NCBI RefSeq assembly: GCF_037975215.1
Contig: NZ_CP150239.1
Coordinates: 2,208,001-2,272,000, forward strand
Direction: 5' to 3'
Source: Solibacillus sp. FSL R5-0449
Lineage (GTDB): Bacteria; Bacillota; Bacilli; Bacillales_A; Planococcaceae
DNA length: 64,000 bases
The position numbers were made by a program, and so were the translations under genes. Each line of letters starts with the position of its first letter. Position 1 is the stretch's first letter. Below are positions 12,599-49,587 of this stretch, piece after piece. Below the pieces are notes generated by a model. It did not search any database. It saw only the letters and a list, made by a program, of their open reading frames with translations, and was not told where the DNA came from.

Positions 12599-13231
12599 TC
12601 ACCTCTTCAAACAAATTAACAAACCATCACCGACAGGGAAAAAGGCACTCGAATAATCCGGATGTGCCATGATCCAGTCTGAAAATGTTTTTAAGTTGCG
12701 GATCATCGTTCTTTTTCTTCTAGGTACTTCTTTTATATCTAAATCCGATAGTCCGTGCATATACATATTATCGATGTATAAAACGCCACCCGAAGGAACG
12801 AGCGATGCGTACTTTTCGAAAAACTTCATGTATTGCCCTTTTGCCGCATCAATAAAAACAGCATCAAAAGTAGTAGGAAGTGTTTCCATGTCTACCTCTA
12901 ACGCATCGCCCTCAATTACTTGTATGCGGTTTGCCACCTCTGACCTTGCAATGAATTCCTTGGCATACTGAACTCGCGATACATCGCGTTCTATCGTCAC
13001 AATATGACTTTGTGGCAGCGCTTGCGCCATTCGTATCGCAGAATAGCCAATTGCCGTGCCAATTTCTAAAATTGATTTTGGATTTTGAATACGCAAAATT
13101 TGATTCAATGACTCAATCCCCGCCAGCTGCATGATCGGGACATGATTCTGTTCTGCGAAGCGTTCCATTTCCATTAATAATTCATCACGTTCAGGAATGA
13201 AGGAAGCAATATAAGCGTCTGATAATTCCAT
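12599..13231 (-). CDS. trmR: tRNA 5-hydroxyuridine methyltransferase
   Basis: TrmR (YrrM) methylates 5-hydroxyuridine at tRNA position 34 to 5-methoxyuridine. It has the class I O-methyltransferase fold: SILEIGTAIGYSAIRMA (AdoMet loop, about residues 53-69), VFIDAAKGQYMKFF with a metal-binding Asp, and the later YIDNMYMHG. The length is 210 residues. As first gene of the operon, it should act after the hydroxylation done by the TrhP products just downstream. Confidence 0.94.
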   Translation of the reverse strand: MELSDAYIASFIPERDELLMEMERFAEQNHVPIMQLAGIESLNQILRIQNPKSILEIGTAIGYSAIRMAQALPQSHIVTIERDVSRVQYAKEFIARSEVANRIQVIEGDALEVDMETLPTTFDAVFIDAAKGQYMKFFEKYASLVPSGGVLYIDNMYMHGLSDLDIKEVPRRKRTMIRNLKTFSDWIMAHPDYSSAFFPVGDGLLICLKR

Positions 13232-13447
13232 TTGTCATTCTCCCTTTACCTGGTTGTTTGCGCACATCTTTCTTTCACAAGAAAAAAGACGAAACGAAGT
13301 TGTTTGCGCCTACAAAATTGTTATATAAGGACAAAAAATCACAATTTATAATAGCATGAAAAGAAAAGGAATGCGAACAATTTAATGAATTCCGTCTTAA
13401 AACGGAAATTTCAAGCCATTCGATTCCTTTTCTACAACTTATCTTTC

Positions 13448-14566
13448 TTAACGTAAATACTTTTCGATGTTCGCTAAGTGCTCATCATACGTTTTGGCAA
13501 AATGGTTTGTGCCATCTTTATCTGCCAGGAAGTATAAATAATCAGTTTGCGAAGGGTTCAGCGCAGCTTCGATTGATGTCTTGCCGGCTCCAGCGATTGG
13601 TCCAGGCGGCAATCCGACATTTTGGTACGTATTATACGGATTGTCTACTTCCAGATCCTCATACAGTACACGGTCCTTATGCGATCCTAATGCATACAGT
13701 ACTGTTGGGTCTGTCTGTAAAGGCATATCAATCTCGATACGGTTATAGAATACACTCGCAATTGTTTCACGGTCCGTTTGCGCAGTTGCCTCTTCTTCAA
13801 GCAATGAAGCAAATGTCAGCAATTCATGAACCGATGTATTACGTTCTTCCAATATTGGCGTATATTCAGAAACAATTGTATTCATCGCAGTTAGCATTGT
13901 ACCGATAATTTCCTCAATCGATGGGTTATCCTCAAAGAACGGATAGGTTGCAGGATATAAATAGCCTTCCAACGGATGACGTATATTTTCCTTTAAGATA
14001 TCTTCTGATAATAGATCAGGATATTCAGTGATCAATTGCTCCACATAGGCAGCATCCGTCACTTTTTTCATAAAGTCTTCTGCTTTGTGCGAAGTATTTT
14101 TCTGTACAACATCAGCTACTTGCTCGAGTGTTAATCCTTCTGGCACCGTCATTGTAAATACAGGTTCACGATATACTCGCCCTGTCTTTAAACTTTCAAT
14201 AATTTCGTCAAGTGTCATGGATTTCGTTAAAGAATAACTGCCGGCTTGGAATTCCGATTCATTTTTAAATTTAGTATAATATTTAAAAATCTTTGCATTC
14301 TTTACAATACCCTTATCTTCTAAAATAGTTGATATTAAGGTAATCCCTGAGCCCATCGGAATTTCGACTTCAACTTGTTCATTCGACTCCGGGTCCATTG
14401 GTTTTAATGCCGATGTCACGTAGTTGTATCCTGCGAAACCGACAATGGCAATAATAAGAAGAGCGACAAGCGCGATGATTCCCACAATTTTACGCACCGT
14501 TTTAACTTCTCCTTTACGCTCTTTCATCTTATTGAACATTTCTTGCTTCTTATTTTCGTCTAGCAC
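13448..14566 (-). CDS. mltG: endolytic murein transglycosylase MltG
   Basis: MltG cleaves nascent glycan strands at the outer membrane face of the cell and is thought to set strand length. After a basic cytoplasmic start comes one membrane segment (about residues 30-50), then a LysM-like region and the catalytic domain with ASLLEEEA (catalytic Glu) and FYNRI...MPLQTDPTVLYALG. GTG 14566 was chosen (372 residues) because AAAGGGGGG lies seven bases upstream; an ATG further up (MYHYGREK) has no ribosome site. The B. subtilis name is yrrL. Confidence 0.93.
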   Translation of the reverse strand: MLDENKKQEMFNKMKERKGEVKTVRKIVGIIALVALLIIAIVGFAGYNYVTSALKPMDPESNEQVEVEIPMGSGITLISTILEDKGIVKNAKIFKYYTKFKNESEFQAGSYSLTKSMTLDEIIESLKTGRVYREPVFTMTVPEGLTLEQVADVVQKNTSHKAEDFMKKVTDAAYVEQLITEYPDLLSEDILKENIRHPLEGYLYPATYPFFEDNPSIEEIIGTMLTAMNTIVSEYTPILEERNTSVHELLTFASLLEEEATAQTDRETIASVFYNRIEIDMPLQTDPTVLYALGSHKDRVLYEDLEVDNPYNTYQNVGLPPGPIAGAGKTSIEAALNPSQTDYLYFLADKDGTNHFAKTYDEHLANIEKYLR

Positions 14567-15631: not shown

Positions 15632-15738
15632 GATCGTCACCTCTTCATAATATTTAGGCATTGGTGCCTGTTGCTGCTCAATTCATTATACATAAAGCCT
15701 TTTCGGATAAGTACAAAAAAGCCTTATATGGAGCAACT

Positions 15739-16155
15739 TTAGTTTTTACTATCTAAATAGCCTTGTAAAATCATGACAGCAGCCATTTTATCAATAACTT
15801 GCTTTCTTTTTTTACGGCTTACGTCTGCCTCGATCAGCATACGCTCAGCAGCCATCGTTGTCATACGCTCGTCCCAAAGCTTAACAGGAAAACCGAATGT
15901 ATCTTCCAGCAACTTCTTGTAACTTTCGGAAGCTTCACCTCGAGGGCCGATTGTATTATTCATGTTTTTTGGGTAGCCTACAACAAATTCAGTTACATTG
16001 TGTTCCTTCACAAGCTCTTTAATACGCTCAATACCAAATTCGCCTACCGCTTCATTGATTTTAACCGTCTCGATACCTTGCGCTGTCCACCCTAGCGCAT
16101 CACTAATTGCAACGCCGACTGTTTTCGAGCCGACGTCTAAACCCATAATTTTCAT
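15739..16155 (-). CDS. ruvX: RuvX/YqgF Holliday-junction resolvase-like nuclease
   Basis: The RNase H-fold protein is 138 residues long. The first catalytic Asp is in [15 protein letters not shown], and the later ones are in LWDERMTT and [11 protein letters not shown]. coli YqgF acts in 16S rRNA 5'-end processing, and a junction-resolving role has also been proposed. Its start overlaps the ireB stop by 4 bases, showing tight coupling. Confidence 0.94.
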
Positions 16156-43903: not shown

Positions 43904-44746
43904 TTAGTTTTGCAATGTATCAATCTGTCTTGCAAAAGAATCATAATGTTTCATCCAGTCATATACAATCGATTGAATAAACGGATAGCAGGAAAGCTTT
44001 TGCCGGTCGCTGAGTTTCAAATAGTATAAACATTCCCTTAATATTTCATTCGGGAAAAACAGATAGTGAAGCTTTTCCTGCGCTTTATGCAAATATTGAT
44101 GATCATTTACAAGTGGCTGAACTTCATATTGAACATGTGGCAATACACGATGAAGCCATAAAATAATTTCATCTGACGCCTCTCCTAAAGAGGCTAAATC
44201 AAAATCAATAAGTTTCACATCTTCACCACGTAGCATCACATTATGATGAACAACATCCCCATGTAAAATCGTTGGCTTTTCACTCGGCACTGTAATTTGA
44301 GCCATTAAACCTAAGGCATAGGAAGCATGATTGACTAAAATATCATAATTGCTTTTTAGTAAACGTCTCAATTCTCTTTCATGATTGATAAAACGCTCGA
44401 ATCTCCTCGTCCATTTCTCCTGTAATTGATACGTGGACAAGATGCCCAATTCCGCCCAAGGAATGACTTCATTTGTTTCATGCAGTTTTTCGATAGCATG
44501 GAGGGAAAGCTGCTGATGTTCAAAACGTTTATACTCAGCACTTTTCCCCTCAAACCAAAACTGCTTTATTATATGCTTCTCTTCATTTTCAACAAGTGGA
44601 ATATGATATGGAAATTGTATATTTTCAAGCTCTCGGTGAACCGCTTTAACTTTCTGTGCAACAAAACCATTTTCATAATACTTCATAAAAAAGGACCCTT
44701 TATGTGTATCCCACTTCCAGCAATTTTCCTTAATTACTATTGACAT
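43904..44746 (-). CDS. aminoglycoside phosphotransferase/CotS-like kinase
   Basis: This 280-residue protein has the APH/choline-kinase catalytic motifs ILHGDVVHHNVML (catalytic Asp, near residue 163) and KLIDFDLAS (metal-binding Asp). The same fold occurs in spore coat proteins CotS and YtaA. It starts 10 bases inside the end of safA, so it is coupled to a coat morphogenetic gene; a sporulation role is inferred from that. ATG 44746 has a poor ribosome site; a downstream ATG (MKYYENG) preceded by AAAGGG is an alternative start. Confidence 0.78.
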   Translation of the reverse strand: MSIVIKENCWKWDTHKGSFFMKYYENGFVAQKVKAVHRELENIQFPYHIPLVENEEKHIIKQFWFEGKSAEYKRFEHQQLSLHAIEKLHETNEVIPWAELGILSTYQLQEKWTRRFERFINHERELRRLLKSNYDILVNHASYALGLMAQITVPSEKPTILHGDVVHHNVMLRGEDVKLIDFDLASLGEASDEIILWLHRVLPHVQYEVQPLVNDHQYLHKAQEKLHYLFFPNEILRECLYYLKLSDRQKLSCYPFIQSIVYDWMKHYDSFARQIDTLQN

Positions 44747-45816
44747 GATTTCGGCGGGTGTGGCATTTGTTGCATTTGAGGCATCGTATTTGCTGGATAT
44801 GGCATCATCTGCTGCATTGTATTTTCAGGATACGGCATCGGCATCATATGTGGGTGACAAGGGTTTGGTTGACGCATCATGTGGTCAATTTCTTCATAAT
44901 ACTGATGTACTAGGTGATCCTTATCCTGACAATGATCTCTCTTTAATGATGACTCTTCGTGGCAAATCGGCTGCATCTGCATTTGCATCGGCATCGACAT
45001 TGGCATTGGCTCCATATACATATTTGGTTGCATCTGCATTGGGGATTCCATTGCCATTTGATTACATTTCGAACAACCCGGCATTTGCGGCATTGGCATC
45101 GGCATTGGCATTGGCTGCATATGCATTGGAGATTCCATTGCCATTTGATGACATTTTGAACATACAGGCATTTGAGGCATTGGCATTGGCATTGGCATTG
45201 GCATCGGCATATGGTGACATGTTGGACATACCGGCATTTGCGGCATTGGCATCGGCATTGGTTGGATATATTGCGGTTGCTCGATAAAAATTGGTTGCTG
45301 TGGTTGCTGCGGAGGTTGTTGAGCAACCGGTTGCTGTGGTGTCGGCATTGGTTGCGGTACTGTCACCGTATTTTCGAATGTCGGCTGAACATGTACATGT
45401 GTTTGCCAATTCGGCATTGGCATCGGCTGCGGTTGCTGGAAATAAATAATATCCCCTTGCCAAATCGGTTTTTGCGGTTGTGGCATTGGCATCGGAGCCG
45501 GTGTTGGAGCCGGTGCTGGCGCTGGTGCCGGCTTAACTTGCTCTTTTTTCGGCGCTGGCGCTGGGGCTGGAGCCGGTTTTGGCGCCGGCGCCGGTGTTGG
45601 TACCGGTTGCTCTTTAACAGACTTCGGCTGTTCCTTCACTGGTTGCTGCACTTCTTTTTTCGTAGTCGTGTCCGGTAAATAGATTTCCATTCCCGGAACA
45701 ATATAGTCAGGGTTTGCTAAATGGGCATTTAATCGCTTTAACTCATCAAAGCCAACCGCGTATTGCTTCGCGATTTTCCACAAAGTGTCTCCCTTTTGAA
45801 CAATATGAACGCGCAC
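44737..45816 (-). CDS. safA: SafA-like LysM spore coat morphogenetic protein
   Basis: This 359-residue protein begins with one LysM domain (VHIVQKGDTLWKIAKQYAVGFDELKRLN) that should bind cortex peptidoglycan, as in B. subtilis SafA, which directs inner coat assembly. Next comes a Pro/Ala-rich linker (about residues 65-115) and then a long Pro/Met-rich tail with three CxxC units (CPTC, CSKC, CSKC) in repeats of the type MPQMPVCSKCHQMAMESPM. The tail ends in His/Met/Cys-rich sequence. The start is GTG 45816, with AAAAGGAGG upstream. Divergent from niaR, as in Bacillus. Confidence 0.88.
   Translation of the reverse strand: MRVHIVQKGDTLWKIAKQYAVGFDELKRLNAHLANPDYIVPGMEIYLPDTTTKKEVQQPVKEQPKSVKEQPVPTPAPAPKPAPAPAPAPKKEQVKPAPAPAPAPTPAPMPMPQPQKPIWQGDIIYFQQPQPMPMPNWQTHVHVQPTFENTVTVPQPMPTPQQPVAQQPPQQPQQPIFIEQPQYIQPMPMPMPQMPVCPTCHHMPMPMPMPMPMPQMPVCSKCHQMAMESPMHMQPMPMPMPMPQMPGCSKCNQMAMESPMQMQPNMYMEPMPMSMPMQMQMQPICHEESSLKRDHCQDKDHLVHQYYEEIDHMMRQPNPCHPHMMPMPYPENTMQQMMPYPANTMPQMQQMPHPPKSCQ
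44955..45290 (-). repeat. hexanucleotide-like low-complexity repeats inside safA
   Basis: Runs of GGCATT/GGCATC units encode the Met-Pro tail. They keep several other frames open, which explains spurious Leu-Ala and His-Trp frames on the opposite strand. Such runs are prone to slippage. Confidence 0.85.
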
Positions 45817-45846
45817 TTCTTTCCTCCTTTTCTCGTAATAGCATAT

Positions 45847-45859
45847 GCACAAATTGTGC
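45847..45859. promoter_or_regulatory. palindrome in the safA/niaR intergenic region
   Basis: GCACAAATTGTGC is a perfect 13-base palindrome about 80 bases before niaR. It is a candidate operator; the binding protein is unknown. Confidence 0.3.
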
Positions 45860-46520: not shown

Positions 46521-47813
46521 TTATGAATAATTCCGTTGTACTCCATATCCGGTGAATGTTTTCCTGCGATATACACTTAGTGCAATCCCGATGACAAACG
46601 AATTTAATAATAGAGACGTAAAACCATAACTGATAAAAGGAAGCGCCAATCCGATAATCGGCAGCCAGCCAAGGATCATCGCAACAGAATAGCCAAACTG
46701 CATGCAGTAAAAAGAGACTGCTCCAATTACAAGCATTTTCCCATAGGAACGGGGTAATCGGTTCACTTTCCAAAGTATACGAACGGCAACGGCAAATAAT
46801 ACCGAAACGACGGCAATTCCTGCAATATATCCGAATTTCTGAATAAGCAGTACTAAAGCGAAATCAGTATGTCCTTCCGGAATATAACGAATCGTCTCCG
46901 TCCCAAACCATCCTGCTTCATTTAATGCATTTTTAACTGCCAAATAAACATAGCCTTCCTCTGTCGGATAACTGGCCGGATCCAAATATGCGTATAACCG
47001 CACAAGCTGGTAATCATGCAACCGGGGTATAATGAGGAACATGTTGCTCGCTACGAACCCGCTTACCGCTAAACTTGTTACTATTTTTGCCTTGGCGGAA
47101 TAGTCACTGACAAAAAATAAAACCGTCACTACCCCAGCATACAGGAATGCTGCTATCAGGCTTGGCGCACTTAAAATAAACCATAACGGCAAAACAAATA
47201 AGACGATTAACTGCCAGCTTTTAAATTTCCCCCGCGTAAAAAACCCTGCCCAGGCAATGAACAGCATTGGTAAAACGGTCAAAGCCTGAATCTGTATCGG
47301 TCCTGCCATTAAATAGCTTTGCCCCTGCACTCTAACTGTCGGGAAATAACTTAATACCATTAACAGAATAAGTGCACCTAAATATAGAGCGAGACTGAAT
47401 CGTTCCACCTTCCGATAATCGGTATACATCAGGACGGCAATCAATATTACGGCAAATACAAGATGCAGCCACTTACCTCGAATAAAATGATCGGTCATAT
47501 CGGCTCCAAAAAAGATGGTACTGTCAAATGTTACTATCGGGATAAAACTTGTACCTAAAAGAATGGCCACTAAACCGATTAATAGCCAGTCTACTTTCGG
47601 TCGGTGAATTTTATCCATCGATTTACCGATTTCAGAAGGCGACCCCATTTCTTCGATTGCTTTTCGCTCTGCTTCCTCCGCTGTATATCCTTTTTTCATC
47701 CATGCAATTTTCGAATGTTCTAGATGTTGCTTTAATTCATCATATACATGAACCTGAGCTTCCTTCGATCGAATAAAGGCAGTGACTTTTCTTAAGAAGC
47801 TTTCACTCTGCAT
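46521..47813 (-). CDS. SEDS (FtsW/RodA/SpoVE) family protein with N-terminal permease-prefix-like domain
   Basis: This 430-residue protein has a cytoplasmic N-terminal domain (about residues 1-70, ELKQHLEHSKIAWMKKGYTAEEAERKAIEEMGSP) of the permease-prefix type, then about 10 membrane segments of SEDS type. The catalytic-site motif EGHTDFALVLLIQKFG keeps the Asp that is essential in RodA and FtsW, and LALPFISYG is the family C-terminal signature. It should thus be able to polymerise glycan strands. It overlaps the PadR-like gene by 11 bases and is the last gene of an ECF sigma operon. Confidence 0.88.
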   Translation of the reverse strand: MQSESFLRKVTAFIRSKEAQVHVYDELKQHLEHSKIAWMKKGYTAEEAERKAIEEMGSPSEIGKSMDKIHRPKVDWLLIGLVAILLGTSFIPIVTFDSTIFFGADMTDHFIRGKWLHLVFAVILIAVLMYTDYRKVERFSLALYLGALILLMVLSYFPTVRVQGQSYLMAGPIQIQALTVLPMLFIAWAGFFTRGKFKSWQLIVLFVLPLWFILSAPSLIAAFLYAGVVTVLFFVSDYSAKAKIVTSLAVSGFVASNMFLIIPRLHDYQLVRLYAYLDPASYPTEEGYVYLAVKNALNEAGWFGTETIRYIPEGHTDFALVLLIQKFGYIAGIAVVSVLFAVAVRILWKVNRLPRSYGKMLVIGAVSFYCMQFGYSVAMILGWLPIIGLALPFISYGFTSLLLNSFVIGIALSVYRRKTFTGYGVQRNYS

Positions 47814-48198
47814 GCATGCGCACCCCCAGTAAACGTTCCTTCAATGTCAGCTTCACATGACCTTCTTGCTGTAATTGTTTTTTACCGGCCTTCGTTAGCT
47901 CGTAACGCTTAACACCGTCATTCCAACTGGCAAGCACAAGTCCATCGTTTTCCTGTTCGTGTAGAATGGAATAGATCATGCCCTCATTGTTGACAACATC
48001 CTGTACTCCCCTTACATGGAGTAACTGCGTAATTTCAATACCGGACTTTGCTTCGAAAAGAAGTGATAGAAGCACTTTTTTCACCTCATCGACGTTTAAC
48101 TGACGCTGAACTTGTTGCTTGTGCTGCTCTGTGAATTTCGTGCCGGAAAATGCAGTGCGATCCATCGCTTTTTTCAAATTTTTTAAACGATCATCCAT
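47803..48198 (-). CDS. PadR-like winged-helix protein
   Basis: This 131-residue protein has a PadR-type winged helix in its second half: LLSLLFEAKSGIEITQLL, then MIYSILHEQENDGLVLASW and RYELTKAGKKQLQQEG. The N-terminal 40 residues are charged and helical. It overlaps the sigma gene (ATGGATGA) and the SEDS gene, so all three are co-translated. It may repress the operon or regulate the sigma factor; neither is shown. ATG 48198 is used; GTG 48207 is an alternative. Confidence 0.82.
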   Translation of the reverse strand: MDDRLKNLKKAMDRTAFSGTKFTEQHKQQVQRQLNVDEVKKVLLSLLFEAKSGIEITQLLHVRGVQDVVNNEGMIYSILHEQENDGLVLASWNDGVKRYELTKAGKKQLQQEGHVKLTLKERLLGVRMHAE

Positions 48199-48736
48199 TT
48201 TCTTCACGCTCCAGATGTTTTTTTAATAGCTGCTTCCCTTTTCGAAGCCTCGTTTTTACGGTGTTTTCATTAATTTGCAGTACATCGGCCATTTCCTTCA
48301 TCGTCCGATCTTCGTAATAGCATAAATAAATAACTTCACGGTATTTGACCGGCAGCGCCATGACCGCCTTTACTAAGTCAGCATCTTCCTGCTGCTGGAT
48401 GACTTCCTGTTCTACGGAATGGCTGCTTTCCACTTGCATAAACACATCATCATCTTTTGCTTCGACATTTTTGGCATACCAGCTTTTCAGATAATCTTTC
48501 GAATGGTTAATGGCAATGCGCCAAAGCCACGTTTTTAACGACGAGCCATACTGAAACGTTGGGAGTGCCCTGTAGCATTTCACGAAAATTTCCTGTGTCA
48601 GATCCTCGGCAACCGAGTTGTTATGTACATATTGCATGACGAGCTTTAATACGTCTTCTCCGTACTGTTGCATAAGTTCGTCTATAATCGCTTCATTTGA
48701 TAAGTTAGCGGTATCATTGATTAAGTAACTTTCCAT
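48191..48736 (-). CDS. ECF-type RNA polymerase sigma factor
   Basis: This 181-residue sigma factor has region 2 (AEDLTQEIFVKCYRALPTFQYGSSLKTWLWRIAINHSKDYLK) and region 4 (LPVKYREVIYLCYYEDRTMKEMADVLQINENTVKTRLRKGKQLL), typical of group 4 (ECF) factors. No standard anti-sigma gene follows; a PadR-like gene and a SEDS gene do. ATG 48736 follows AAAGGAGG. A TCAAAC-17-CGTC promoter directly upstream suggests that it drives its own operon. Confidence 0.92.
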   Translation of the reverse strand: MESYLINDTANLSNEAIIDELMQQYGEDVLKLVMQYVHNNSVAEDLTQEIFVKCYRALPTFQYGSSLKTWLWRIAINHSKDYLKSWYAKNVEAKDDDVFMQVESSHSVEQEVIQQQEDADLVKAVMALPVKYREVIYLCYYEDRTMKEMADVLQINENTVKTRLRKGKQLLKKHLEREENG

Positions 48737-48760
48737 CGGAATACCTCCTTTCAACAATTA

Positions 48761-48787
48761 GACGAGCCCCGATATGGGAAAGTTTGA
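48761..48787 (-). promoter_or_regulatory. ECF-type (sigma-M/W/X-like) promoter of the sigma operon
   Basis: TCAAAC (48782-48787) and CGTC (48761-48764) are 17 bases apart; Bacillus ECF consensus is TGAAAC-16/17-CGTC. Transcription would start near 48754, leaving a short leader with the ribosome site. Confidence 0.55.
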
Positions 48788-48801: not shown

Positions 48802-49117
48802 TTCTAATATATTTGAAGATCTTCTAATATAAATTTTTATCTTCTAATAAAATGGCAGTTTTCTAATATACTGGCCGGATGTGCTAATATAATTTCTTAT
48901 TTTCTAATATCATTGCCGGATGTTCAAATATCCGCATGAGATGTTCTAATATGTTGCACCAATGTTCTAATATAAACGGTACGCCTATTTTTTTCGCCCC
49001 TATACGGACAAAAAATCCGGAGTACGTATTCAAATTTCCCCAAAGTTCTAATATCCTCTTCACATGTTCGAATAAACACCACCATTGTTCTAATAACCGG
49101 CAAGATTGTTCTAATAA
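48802..49117. repeat. array of TTCTAATAT boxes phased at about 21 bp
   Basis: The 9-base box TTCTAATA(T/A), or a 1-2 base variant, starts at 48802, 48822, 48842, 48861, 48882, 48902, 48923, 48944, 48965, 49029, 49046, 49067, 49088 and 49109. Steps are 19-21 bases, with a degenerate centre (48986-49028). Sequence between boxes is not conserved apart from a frequent ATG or TTG just before the box. Two helical turns per unit puts every box on the same DNA face. No gene is supported here. Confidence 0.9.
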
Positions 49118-49145
49118 AATCTCCCCCGACAACTTCCGAACAAAT

Positions 49146-49178
49146 AAAAAGCGCACTCTGCATGAAAGCAAAGTGCAC
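49146..49178 (-). terminator. terminator after the DCC gene
   Basis: On the minus strand GTGCACT pairs with AGTGCGC (one mismatch), followed by TTTTTATTT. Confidence 0.6.
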
Positions 49179-49187
49179 CTGTACATC

Positions 49188-49577
49188 TTATAAAAAACGT
49201 TTACGCTGTTCTGGTGACGGTAACATGCATTCCTGCTTTTTCCCGAACCATTTGTAGCGGTTTTTGGCAATCCAGCGATACACAAGATCGCGAACCGGCT
49301 TCGGTACAACGATAAATACATAAAACAACTTCCACAAACCTGATAAATTCCGTGTAATCTTAAGTGCGGCCGTCGATTCCGTATAATGCCGGTCATTTTC
49401 AATAAACACAATACTGTCCGTTGTTTCCGGCACATCATACTTTTTCAACAAAGCTGCTCCGACATCACTTTGTAGCGAGGCAAACTGAAATAATGCATTC
49501 GGGTCACGTTTAATTATAAACTGGACGCTCGCATCACAGAAATTGCACTCTCCATCAAATAATAAGATTCGCTTCAT
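49188..49577 (-). CDS. thiol-disulfide oxidoreductase DCC family protein
   Basis: This 129-residue protein of the DUF393/DCC family has the signature LLFDGECNFCDASVQFII, with a thioredoxin-like CxxC (CNFC) near residue 14. The true substrate of the family is unknown. ATG 49577 follows GAGGTG. It lies 10 bases after pheA and ends at a terminator, so it may be co-transcribed with pheA. Confidence 0.88.
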   Translation of the reverse strand: MKRILLFDGECNFCDASVQFIIKRDPNALFQFASLQSDVGAALLKKYDVPETTDSIVFIENDRHYTESTAALKITRNLSGLWKLFYVFIVVPKPVRDLVYRWIAKNRYKWFGKKQECMLPSPEQRKRFL

Positions 49578-49587
49578 GCTTTTCACC

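Follow-up and report, generated by a model that had tools for sequence, protein, structure and literature searches.

The array of short direct repeats at positions 48802-49116 of the window (the whole stretch of 64,000 nucleotides analyzed here, from contig NZ_CP150239.1 of Solibacillus sp. FSL R5-0449) is one copy of a dispersed, constrained and helically phased intergenic repeat family, which we lean towards regarding as a platform for a protein that binds cooperatively and head to tail, perhaps at a boundary between transcription units. When up to one mismatch was allowed, 13 TTCTAATA boxes were found in this array, and they are arranged in two blocks of nine (starting at 48802, 48822, 48842, 48861, 48882, 48902, 48923, 48944, and 48965) and four (starting at 49046, 49067, 49088, and 49109). 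Two additional words with two mismatches to TTCTAATA both fall off the main steps of the array. The longest chain of boxes in the window has nine members, while the best among 40 Markov-simulated windows had two. Also, the word TGTTCTAATA, with one mismatch, was matched 16 times in the window versus 6.5 times expected, and 12 of the 16 matches lie inside the array; a count of 16 was reached in none of 100 shuffles. The array and its coordinates, as reported in a first-pass annotation of this DNA, are thus borne out by the box listing and the simulated windows; its spacing of 19-21 bases is retained, whereas its count of about 14 boxes has to be lowered to 13. The features of the locus are as follows.

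48191 to 48757, minus strand: ECF sigma factor gene, neighbor of the array and outside the element, scoring above the cut-off of PRK09415 "sigma C"
48761 to 48785, minus strand: promoter-like site AAAC-N17-CGTC of the sigma gene, ECF-type and kept in the array-free relative G011
48802 to 48972, plus strand: block 1, nine TTCTAATA-type boxes with steps 20-20-19-21-20-21-21-21, a pattern nearly identical in the set of 50 elements described below
48973 to 49045, no strand: linker between the blocks, with a box-to-box step of 81 (71/72, 80-82, or 92 in other copies)
49046 to 49116, plus strand: block 2, four boxes with steps 21-21-21
48884 to 49438, minus strand: spurious ORF through the array with heptads such as ILEH; no Pfam match at E≤1 and no NCBIfam match at E≤10
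48924 to 49178, minus strand: spurious ORF through the array with heptads such as IRT; no NCBIfam match and one chance Pfam match (E 0.2)
48936 to 49193, plus strand: spurious ORF through the array with heptads such as CSN; no NCBIfam match and two chance Pfam matches (E 0.16 and 0.87)
49147 to 49179, minus strand: hairpin and T-tract just past the array, likely terminator of the DCC1-like gene, as read from the sequence
49188 to 49586, minus strand: DCC1-like thiol-disulfide oxidoreductase gene by family match, with its 3' end toward the array

The three ORFs running through the array have no significant match in Pfam or NCBIfam, which agrees with the earlier suggestion of a non-coding repeat family that opens spurious reading frames; furthermore, a protein-coding repeat is rejected by the steps of 19 and 20 bases, which break any frame. 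The array was also said to lie upstream of a promoter, and a promoter-like site AAAC-N17-CGTC of the ECF type is indeed present on the minus strand, 16 bases from the first box. The sigma factor gene heads a likely operon (46521-48757, minus strand) together with genes for a PadR-like regulator, which scores above the cut-off of Pfam but below that of NCBIfam, and for a member of the FtsW/RodA/SpoVE family that carries an N-terminal permease-prefix domain; it is unusual for a cell-wall flippase-like protein to be paired with a sigma factor of its own.

The same locus in relatives tells the array apart from the promoter. The array is present in G007, G012, G003, and G008, with 24 nt missing inside it in G012, and also in G005 and G004, where block 2 is absent. 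In G011, by contrast with these, the aligned pieces flanking the array position are only 39 nt apart, and the promoter and the hairpin are adjacent with no array in between; G009 and G002 are likewise without the array at this locus. Since the array-free G011 keeps the AAAC...CGTC promoter, and G009 and G002 have similar sites by eye, the array appears as an addition to the locus that is unneeded for the existence of the promoter. That the array acts as an upstream activating or UP-like element of the ECF sigma promoter, from the -35 element of which it ends 16 bases away, is hence hardly credible; a divergent context is also rare, being seen at three of the 50 places where the same layout occurs. 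We accordingly give up the link to the sigma promoter and the PadR-like gene that had been proposed, given the layout repeated at about 50 places and the promoter kept in G011.

Those places were found with a four-box pattern (steps 20-19-21, up to three mismatches in 32 letters), which occurs 50 times in the genome containing the window (G000; 3.58 Mb in one contig) and 47, 55, and 41 times in three congeners, while its reversed control gave no match in G000. The expectation that arrays would always lie by the same operon, which the first-pass annotation had proposed to check in the genome and its relatives, therefore fails on some 50 dispersed places in this genome. In the genus, the exact two-box pattern was matched at least once in 13 of the 16 genomes searched, with a single match only in G009 and G014, and was not matched in G002, G010, and G011. 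The exact four-box pattern, searched in named genomes, matched two contigs of Solibacillus merdavium. A search of plasmids gave no match for the window array; among viral contigs, the 20-19 pattern was found in none and the exact 21-21 three-box pattern in five, which look like coding or simple repeats by eye.

When the 50 elements were aligned on their second box, nearly all had the steps 20/21, 20, 19, 21, 21, 21, 21, and 20/21, and nine direct boxes are the architecture common to the copies; in 30 of the 50, tandem neighbors being counted in, a gap of 71-82 is followed by more boxes. The extended consensus of the box is W-T-B-TTC(T/A)AATA-W-V, after which the positions are nearly devoid of information. 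This consensus was derived from the 246 of 250 examined boxes that have up to two mismatches, and among such boxes seven of the eight positions have at least 94% identical letters within the genus. When the 246 boxes are read in the minus-strand Leu-Glu frame, their fourth position shows the synonymous variant least often (1%) and the Leu-to-Phe variant most often (17%); this is the reverse of coding constraint, and a coding role in that frame is rejected.

A dispersed repeat of this kind may be suspected to be a mobile or selfish element, the ends of which are bound by a transposase or recombinase supplied in trans. The roughly 50 dispersed copies with one layout, the tandem arrangement of whole elements near 314, 1078, and 1155 kb, and the empty site at the window locus in G011 would all suit such an element; on the other hand, different species share copies at the same place with their boxes conserved, a close reading by eye of one empty site (G011) revealed no target duplication, and terminal inverted repeats gave no sign of themselves. 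In particular, the two flanks of an element pair no better with each other than with those of different elements (10.56 versus 10.30, with a standard deviation of 2.65), by which a transposon or MITE with terminal inverted repeats is rejected, and we hold a mobile element to be unlikely. In the tandem arrangements (near 314000, 1078500, and 1155300 in G000), two to three copies are placed 235-345 bp apart, and the internal steps are kept.

Comparison between orthologous elements argues for constraint on the boxes. By BLAST of both flanks, 31 of the 47 elements in G003 (40 of the 41 planned stretches being taken in) were paired with elements in G000; the aligned flanks are largely coding sequence, with 90% median identity. 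Over boxes 2-8 of the 31 pairs, 83 of 1736 box positions differ versus 488 of 2325 spacer positions. As boxes 2-5 were used for finding the elements and are thus conserved by choice, the figures to be quoted are those of boxes 6-8, where, in sums of per-column counts, 59 of 744 box positions (7.9%) differ versus 213 of 806 (26%) in the two adjoining spacers, namely 3.3-fold fewer. The comparison was ungapped, and an indel of 1 bp inflates the differences in boxes and spacers alike; one pair (1155538) was out of register. The box map at the one-mismatch cut is identical in only 7 of the 31 pairs. Because the differences in boxes are well below those in spacers, the boxes at each locus are constrained and not merely young, and the arrays would be more than neutral filler, with their boxes under apparent purifying selection.

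These figures bear also on the idea of a neutral minisatellite, in which tandem duplications of 21 bp are decaying. Long, nearly identical runs in some genomes (e.g., G086 and G092) would be expected from it, but decay should make all positions of the unit drift alike, whereas the boxes differ so much less than the spacers here and the length is kept; moreover, a step of 24 bp is far rarer than that of 21 bp, as described below. We thus regard a neutral minisatellite as quite improbable. The first-pass annotation had held that arrays scattered at random, with variable phase and no link to promoters, would point to a neutral repeat; scattered arrays with no promoter link are what we observe, but their phase is constant and their boxes are constrained.

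In terms of the helical register, steps within a block are 19, 20, or 21 with few exceptions, and the gap lengths that separate blocks in G000 and G003 are 38, 42, 49, 50, 58, 60-62, 71, 72, 80-82, 92, 105, 122, and 144. For these 17 distinct gaps, the vector strength is 0.72 at 10.5 bp, which is the best among the periods of 8-13 tried and is reached by none of 20,000 random integer sets; for the subset of 13 values from 38 to 92, it is 0.81 at 10.5 bp, with the best period at 10.7. Gap lengths share ancestry, an effect that is reduced by the use of distinct values only. Between orthologs, some gaps are shifted by about one helical turn (71 versus 82 at 128340, and trailing steps of 61 versus 71 and 38 versus 49), but other shifts are not a turn, several being by 1 and one by 18 (81 versus 63 at 1329280). 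On balance, the pattern of gaps and steps is what selection for helix position would give. The helical phasing of a cooperative-binding type that had been envisaged for the array is in keeping with these data, in that the steps hold to 19-21 as the spacers drift and the gaps stay near a ladder of 10.5 bp.

A cooperative head-to-tail binder of the arrays is likely in our opinion. A sequence-specific protein would bind the boxes head to tail, with one protein unit per two helical turns, and its binding would be cooperative on one face of the DNA by analogy with LytTR-type proteins on two sites. The resulting nucleoprotein run may then form a boundary between transcription units as a block to read-through, an insulator, or an element of local topology. 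The boundary role is the weakest step of the explanation, its basis being location alone as given by a crude ORF caller.

With that caller, and in the orientation of the element, the right-hand neighbor has its 3' end toward the array at 39 of the 50 places in G000. When the array is denoted as A and the strands of its neighbors as signs, the contexts of the 50 arrays are -A- in 21, +A- in 18, +A+ in 8, and -A+ in 3. After collapse to 47 loci, the count is 16 convergent versus three divergent (p=0.004). The background of all gaps of 80-1000 bp in these stretches, with the arrays counted in, is 23 convergent versus 33 divergent; array-free gaps of 80-600 bp are convergent in six and divergent in 25, in stretches that are themselves centered on arrays. 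In tandem gaps, furthermore, one orientation of the array is preferred (20 versus 8, p=0.036). In other genera, convergent versus divergent arrays number 15 versus 6 in G063 and 6 versus 3 in G102, and the background of all gaps is 40 versus 39 and 39 versus 43, respectively.

Given that arrays adjoin the 3' ends of genes, an element acting at the RNA level might be considered, with read-through transcripts carrying repeated sites for an RNA-binding protein. At the window locus, however, a likely terminator sits between the DCC1-like gene and the array, and steps by helical turns make little sense on RNA. Also, no fold signal was obtained for the 17 of the 50 elements examined, which with boxes fixed and spacers shuffled folded no better than their shuffles (mean z of +0.49), and an Rfam search returned five matches, all below gathering scores; a folded or otherwise structured RNA is rejected by these two results, and an RNA-level element in general is very unlikely.

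The arrays are further marked by a turn in GC skew from positive to negative across them, both flanks being G-rich and C-poor when read inward. In G000, the left 50-nt flank has a higher skew than the right one in 50 of 52 arrays, versus 37 of 101 for the halves of array-free intergenic regions; the corresponding counts are 27 of 37 versus 50 of 121 in G063 and 14 of 20 versus 55 of 152 in G102, where the signal is weak (14 of 20 by flanks and 13 of 20 by halves). Solibacillus arrays share ancestry, and their skew does not amount to 50 independent cases, so that G063 with its other words provides the better evidence in spite of some duplicates. G is raised alike on the sides facing gene 5' ends and gene 3' ends in all three genomes. 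In the core of the G000 arrays, the turn is seen in all four gene contexts, with positive values from -70 to 60 and negative ones from 100 to 225, and the skew further to the right of the core varies with gene context. The inversion is hence tied neither to the word nor, in the core, to the orientation of genes, and it is not an inverted repeat according to the flank-pairing comparison. Such a turn of skew is known from replication termini, and it would also suit convergent transcription that stops at the array. The boundary reading by itself leaves the inversion unexplained.

Arrays with the same step extend beyond the genus. Six exact TTCT words at 21 bp were found in 69 of 261 genomes of the bacterial family, in 15 of its 19 genera and with up to 166 matches in one genome, and the words behind TTCT differ between genera. 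With a step of 24 bp, chosen as a control for the reason that coding repeats should fill 24 bp as easily as 21, the pattern was found in 20 of the 261 genomes, with at most 12 matches in one and none in the array-rich G102, G203, G220, and G224. The reversed word was found in 59 of the 261 genomes at 21 bp and in 19 at 24 bp, so mere occurrence in a genome does not single out TTCT; an excess of the reversed word at 21 bp is what a shared step, and not a shared word, would predict. The 24-bp matches in both directions of the word were mostly one coding-like place each by eye. Five TTCT words at 21 bp with one mismatch allowed were found in 213 of the 261 genomes, many of them in coding repeats by eye.

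A scan free of any word, in which four 8-mers had to match in a chain at lags of 10-63, points to the same step. Lag 21 accounts for 74 of 78 hits in G000, where the stretches had been selected for their arrays; over 400 kb each, it accounts for 52 of 69 hits in G102 and, with N excluded, 44 of 65 in G063. Many of the other lags are near multiples of 20-21. G102 and G063 were picked as rich in hits; the stretches of G102 were evenly spaced, whereas four of the 20 from G063 were placed on known hits. The 44 hits at lag 21 in G063 include five exact duplicates, and the contamination of this assembly is given as 7%; its runs of N gave false hits at long lags, also in the Markov control (25 hits, none at 21). 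In G102 and G063, which belong to genera other than that of the window, the 21-bp arrays have words unrelated to the window box, and at least eight unrelated words were counted by eye in G063. A strict test found no lag-21 array in 19 further genomes of the family (two of them from the genus of the window), each sampled over at most 20 kb and two over far less; G203, in the same run, had been chosen for its arrays. Outside the family, 20 genomes gave one case, the coding-looking one in G055. Among 299 genomes of the class outside the family, 22 matched, mostly in coding or simple repeats by eye, and only G470 has dispersed arrays that resemble these by eye. Many genomes of the family, including G002, G010, and G011 of the same genus, have few or no arrays by these patterns, which suggests that the function of the arrays is dispensable or replaced.

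The variety of words raises the alternative that the arrays are phased elements of DNA shape, in which a bend repeated every two turns is recognized by a wrapping protein or gyrase that ignores the word. Differences in the word from one array or lineage to the next would be accounted for in this way, and many unrelated words with one step, the 10.5-bp ladder of gaps, and the ten proteins encoded beside large arrays of G102, which have no family in common, are all in its favor. Letters that are so uniform at seven of eight box positions and are kept at each locus are, however, more than shape should need, and we consider the shape reading unlikely, albeit worth some weight. For the preferred reading, in turn, the many words within one genome fit poorly with a single specific protein. 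We would propose, as a tentative generalization of rather less than even probability, an undescribed bacterial class of intergenic arrays in which one word recurs every two helical turns, with cooperative readers that change fast, a location at the ends of transcription units, and an inversion of GC skew; the word would be specific to the lineage, with several words per genome.

Iterons and the centromeres bound by ParR or TubR also consist of direct repeats in blocks, with about two turns per repeat and in some cases a gap between two blocks; there, one or few arrays per replicon lie beside a rep or par gene. The arrays described here differ in number, with about 50 per chromosome. Of the ten proteins beside the G102 arrays, one is an IS3-like transposase, one has no match, and the others are ordinary enzymes and regulators; no rep or par gene was among them. 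By eye, no expanded paralogous family of DNA-binding proteins was recognized among the ORF clusters of the sampled stretches of array-rich genomes.

The sites of the LytTR family (PF04397) have the same geometry as the arrays, namely a direct word of 9 bp in one orientation and mostly 12 bp (11-13) in between, which makes a step of 21 bp, and their spacing is kept more than their sequence (PMC6193735). There, LytTR sites are pairs just upstream of the -35 element, whereas our arrays are dispersed runs of 9-13 or more boxes mostly at the ends of genes; a LytTR-like position just upstream of -35 would hardly describe the arrays in G000, given the prevalence of gene 3' ends on their right-hand side noted above. 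The loosely defined LytTR words are ACC-CTT-like in the same text (PMC6193735), a consensus that TTCTAATA does not fit by eye. Furthermore, the number of LytTR genes does not follow the arrays, with 4-6 matches per genome across all 16 members of the genus, array-rich and array-free alike. As another candidate binder, RemA (PF04025) gave no match in the 16 genomes at E≤0.001, with a positive control in Bacillus subtilis. RemA forms a ring for which DNA wrapping is proposed, and it binds cooperatively to poorly conserved periodic direct repeats, but these are protections of 7 bp with a spacing of 3 bp at a promoter (PMC8481266), unlike the arrays.

Among interspersed repeats, the STAR elements of staphylococci resemble the arrays in being short intergenic direct repeats with locus-specific spacers and stable positions, while they differ in their GC-rich motif of 14 bp, T(G/A/T)TGTTG(G/T)GGCCC(C/A), and in having at least 40 bp between motifs with tandem units of about 50 nt, as described in PMC3532100, where the arrays have 12-13 bp between boxes of 8 bp and many motifs. 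The TAACTGA repeats of Beggiatoaceae and Cyanobacteria are alike in their many sets of short intergenic direct repeats and their patchy distribution, but in PMC4679880 they are heptamers, most of which immediately precede start codons in the main genome studied, and are read as acting at the RNA level, whereas the arrays are phased on DNA and lie at gene ends. These two are the closest kinds described, both without a step of 21 bp as far as their descriptions available to us extend (PMC3532100 and PMC4679880), and the arrays, as interspersed intergenic direct repeats, have a fair chance of being a class of their own. Among the top literature matches, in which subscription journals are mostly uncovered, there was no paper on such arrays in this bacterial family.

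The intergenic DNA of these bacteria is easily mistaken for filler, and ORFs in arrays may receive an annotation as proteins; gene and promoter prediction in the family would thus need the arrays to be masked. Hundreds of boxes per genome stand in one helical register, and other genera show this too, with different words. Should a protein read the boxes, the arrays would constitute an architectural or boundary system across the chromosome, and we know of no current model of Bacillus-like chromosomes that includes such a system. Two questions can now be put to a direct test: the identity of the protein that reads the boxes, and the reason why lineages differ in the word but not in the step.

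Several minor observations accompany these results. A second phased family in G000 uses the word TTCTACTTT at a step of 21 bp (654454-654625, 674367-674641, and 2005277-2005406, with further sites at L100:4635 and L093:6195), and a third small array in this genome has GATAATCCTCA, also at 21 bp (L095:6411-6500). In the array-poor congeners G015 and G001 (L031 and L032, around 1401-1530), an array with a step of 21 is kept beside an ArsR-like regulator, a permease-like gene, and a small glyoxalase-like gene, all named by eye, and the ORF call of the regulator in G001 extends back through the array. In G203 (L322, about 13140-14170 and 15710-16110), very long arrays alternate between words such as TTCTCGTTAAT and TTCTCATTCCC and lie between genes that look ordinary by eye, and two related ORFs in G102 (L266, 548-2359 and 4507-6318) resemble reverse transcriptases of group II introns by eye. 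Finally, the minus strand at 44737-45852 of the window encodes a protein that is LysM-like by eye and has a long repeat tail rich in Met/Pro/Gln and in Cys-His, and the region of this gene contains DNA repeats of 66 and 87 bp.
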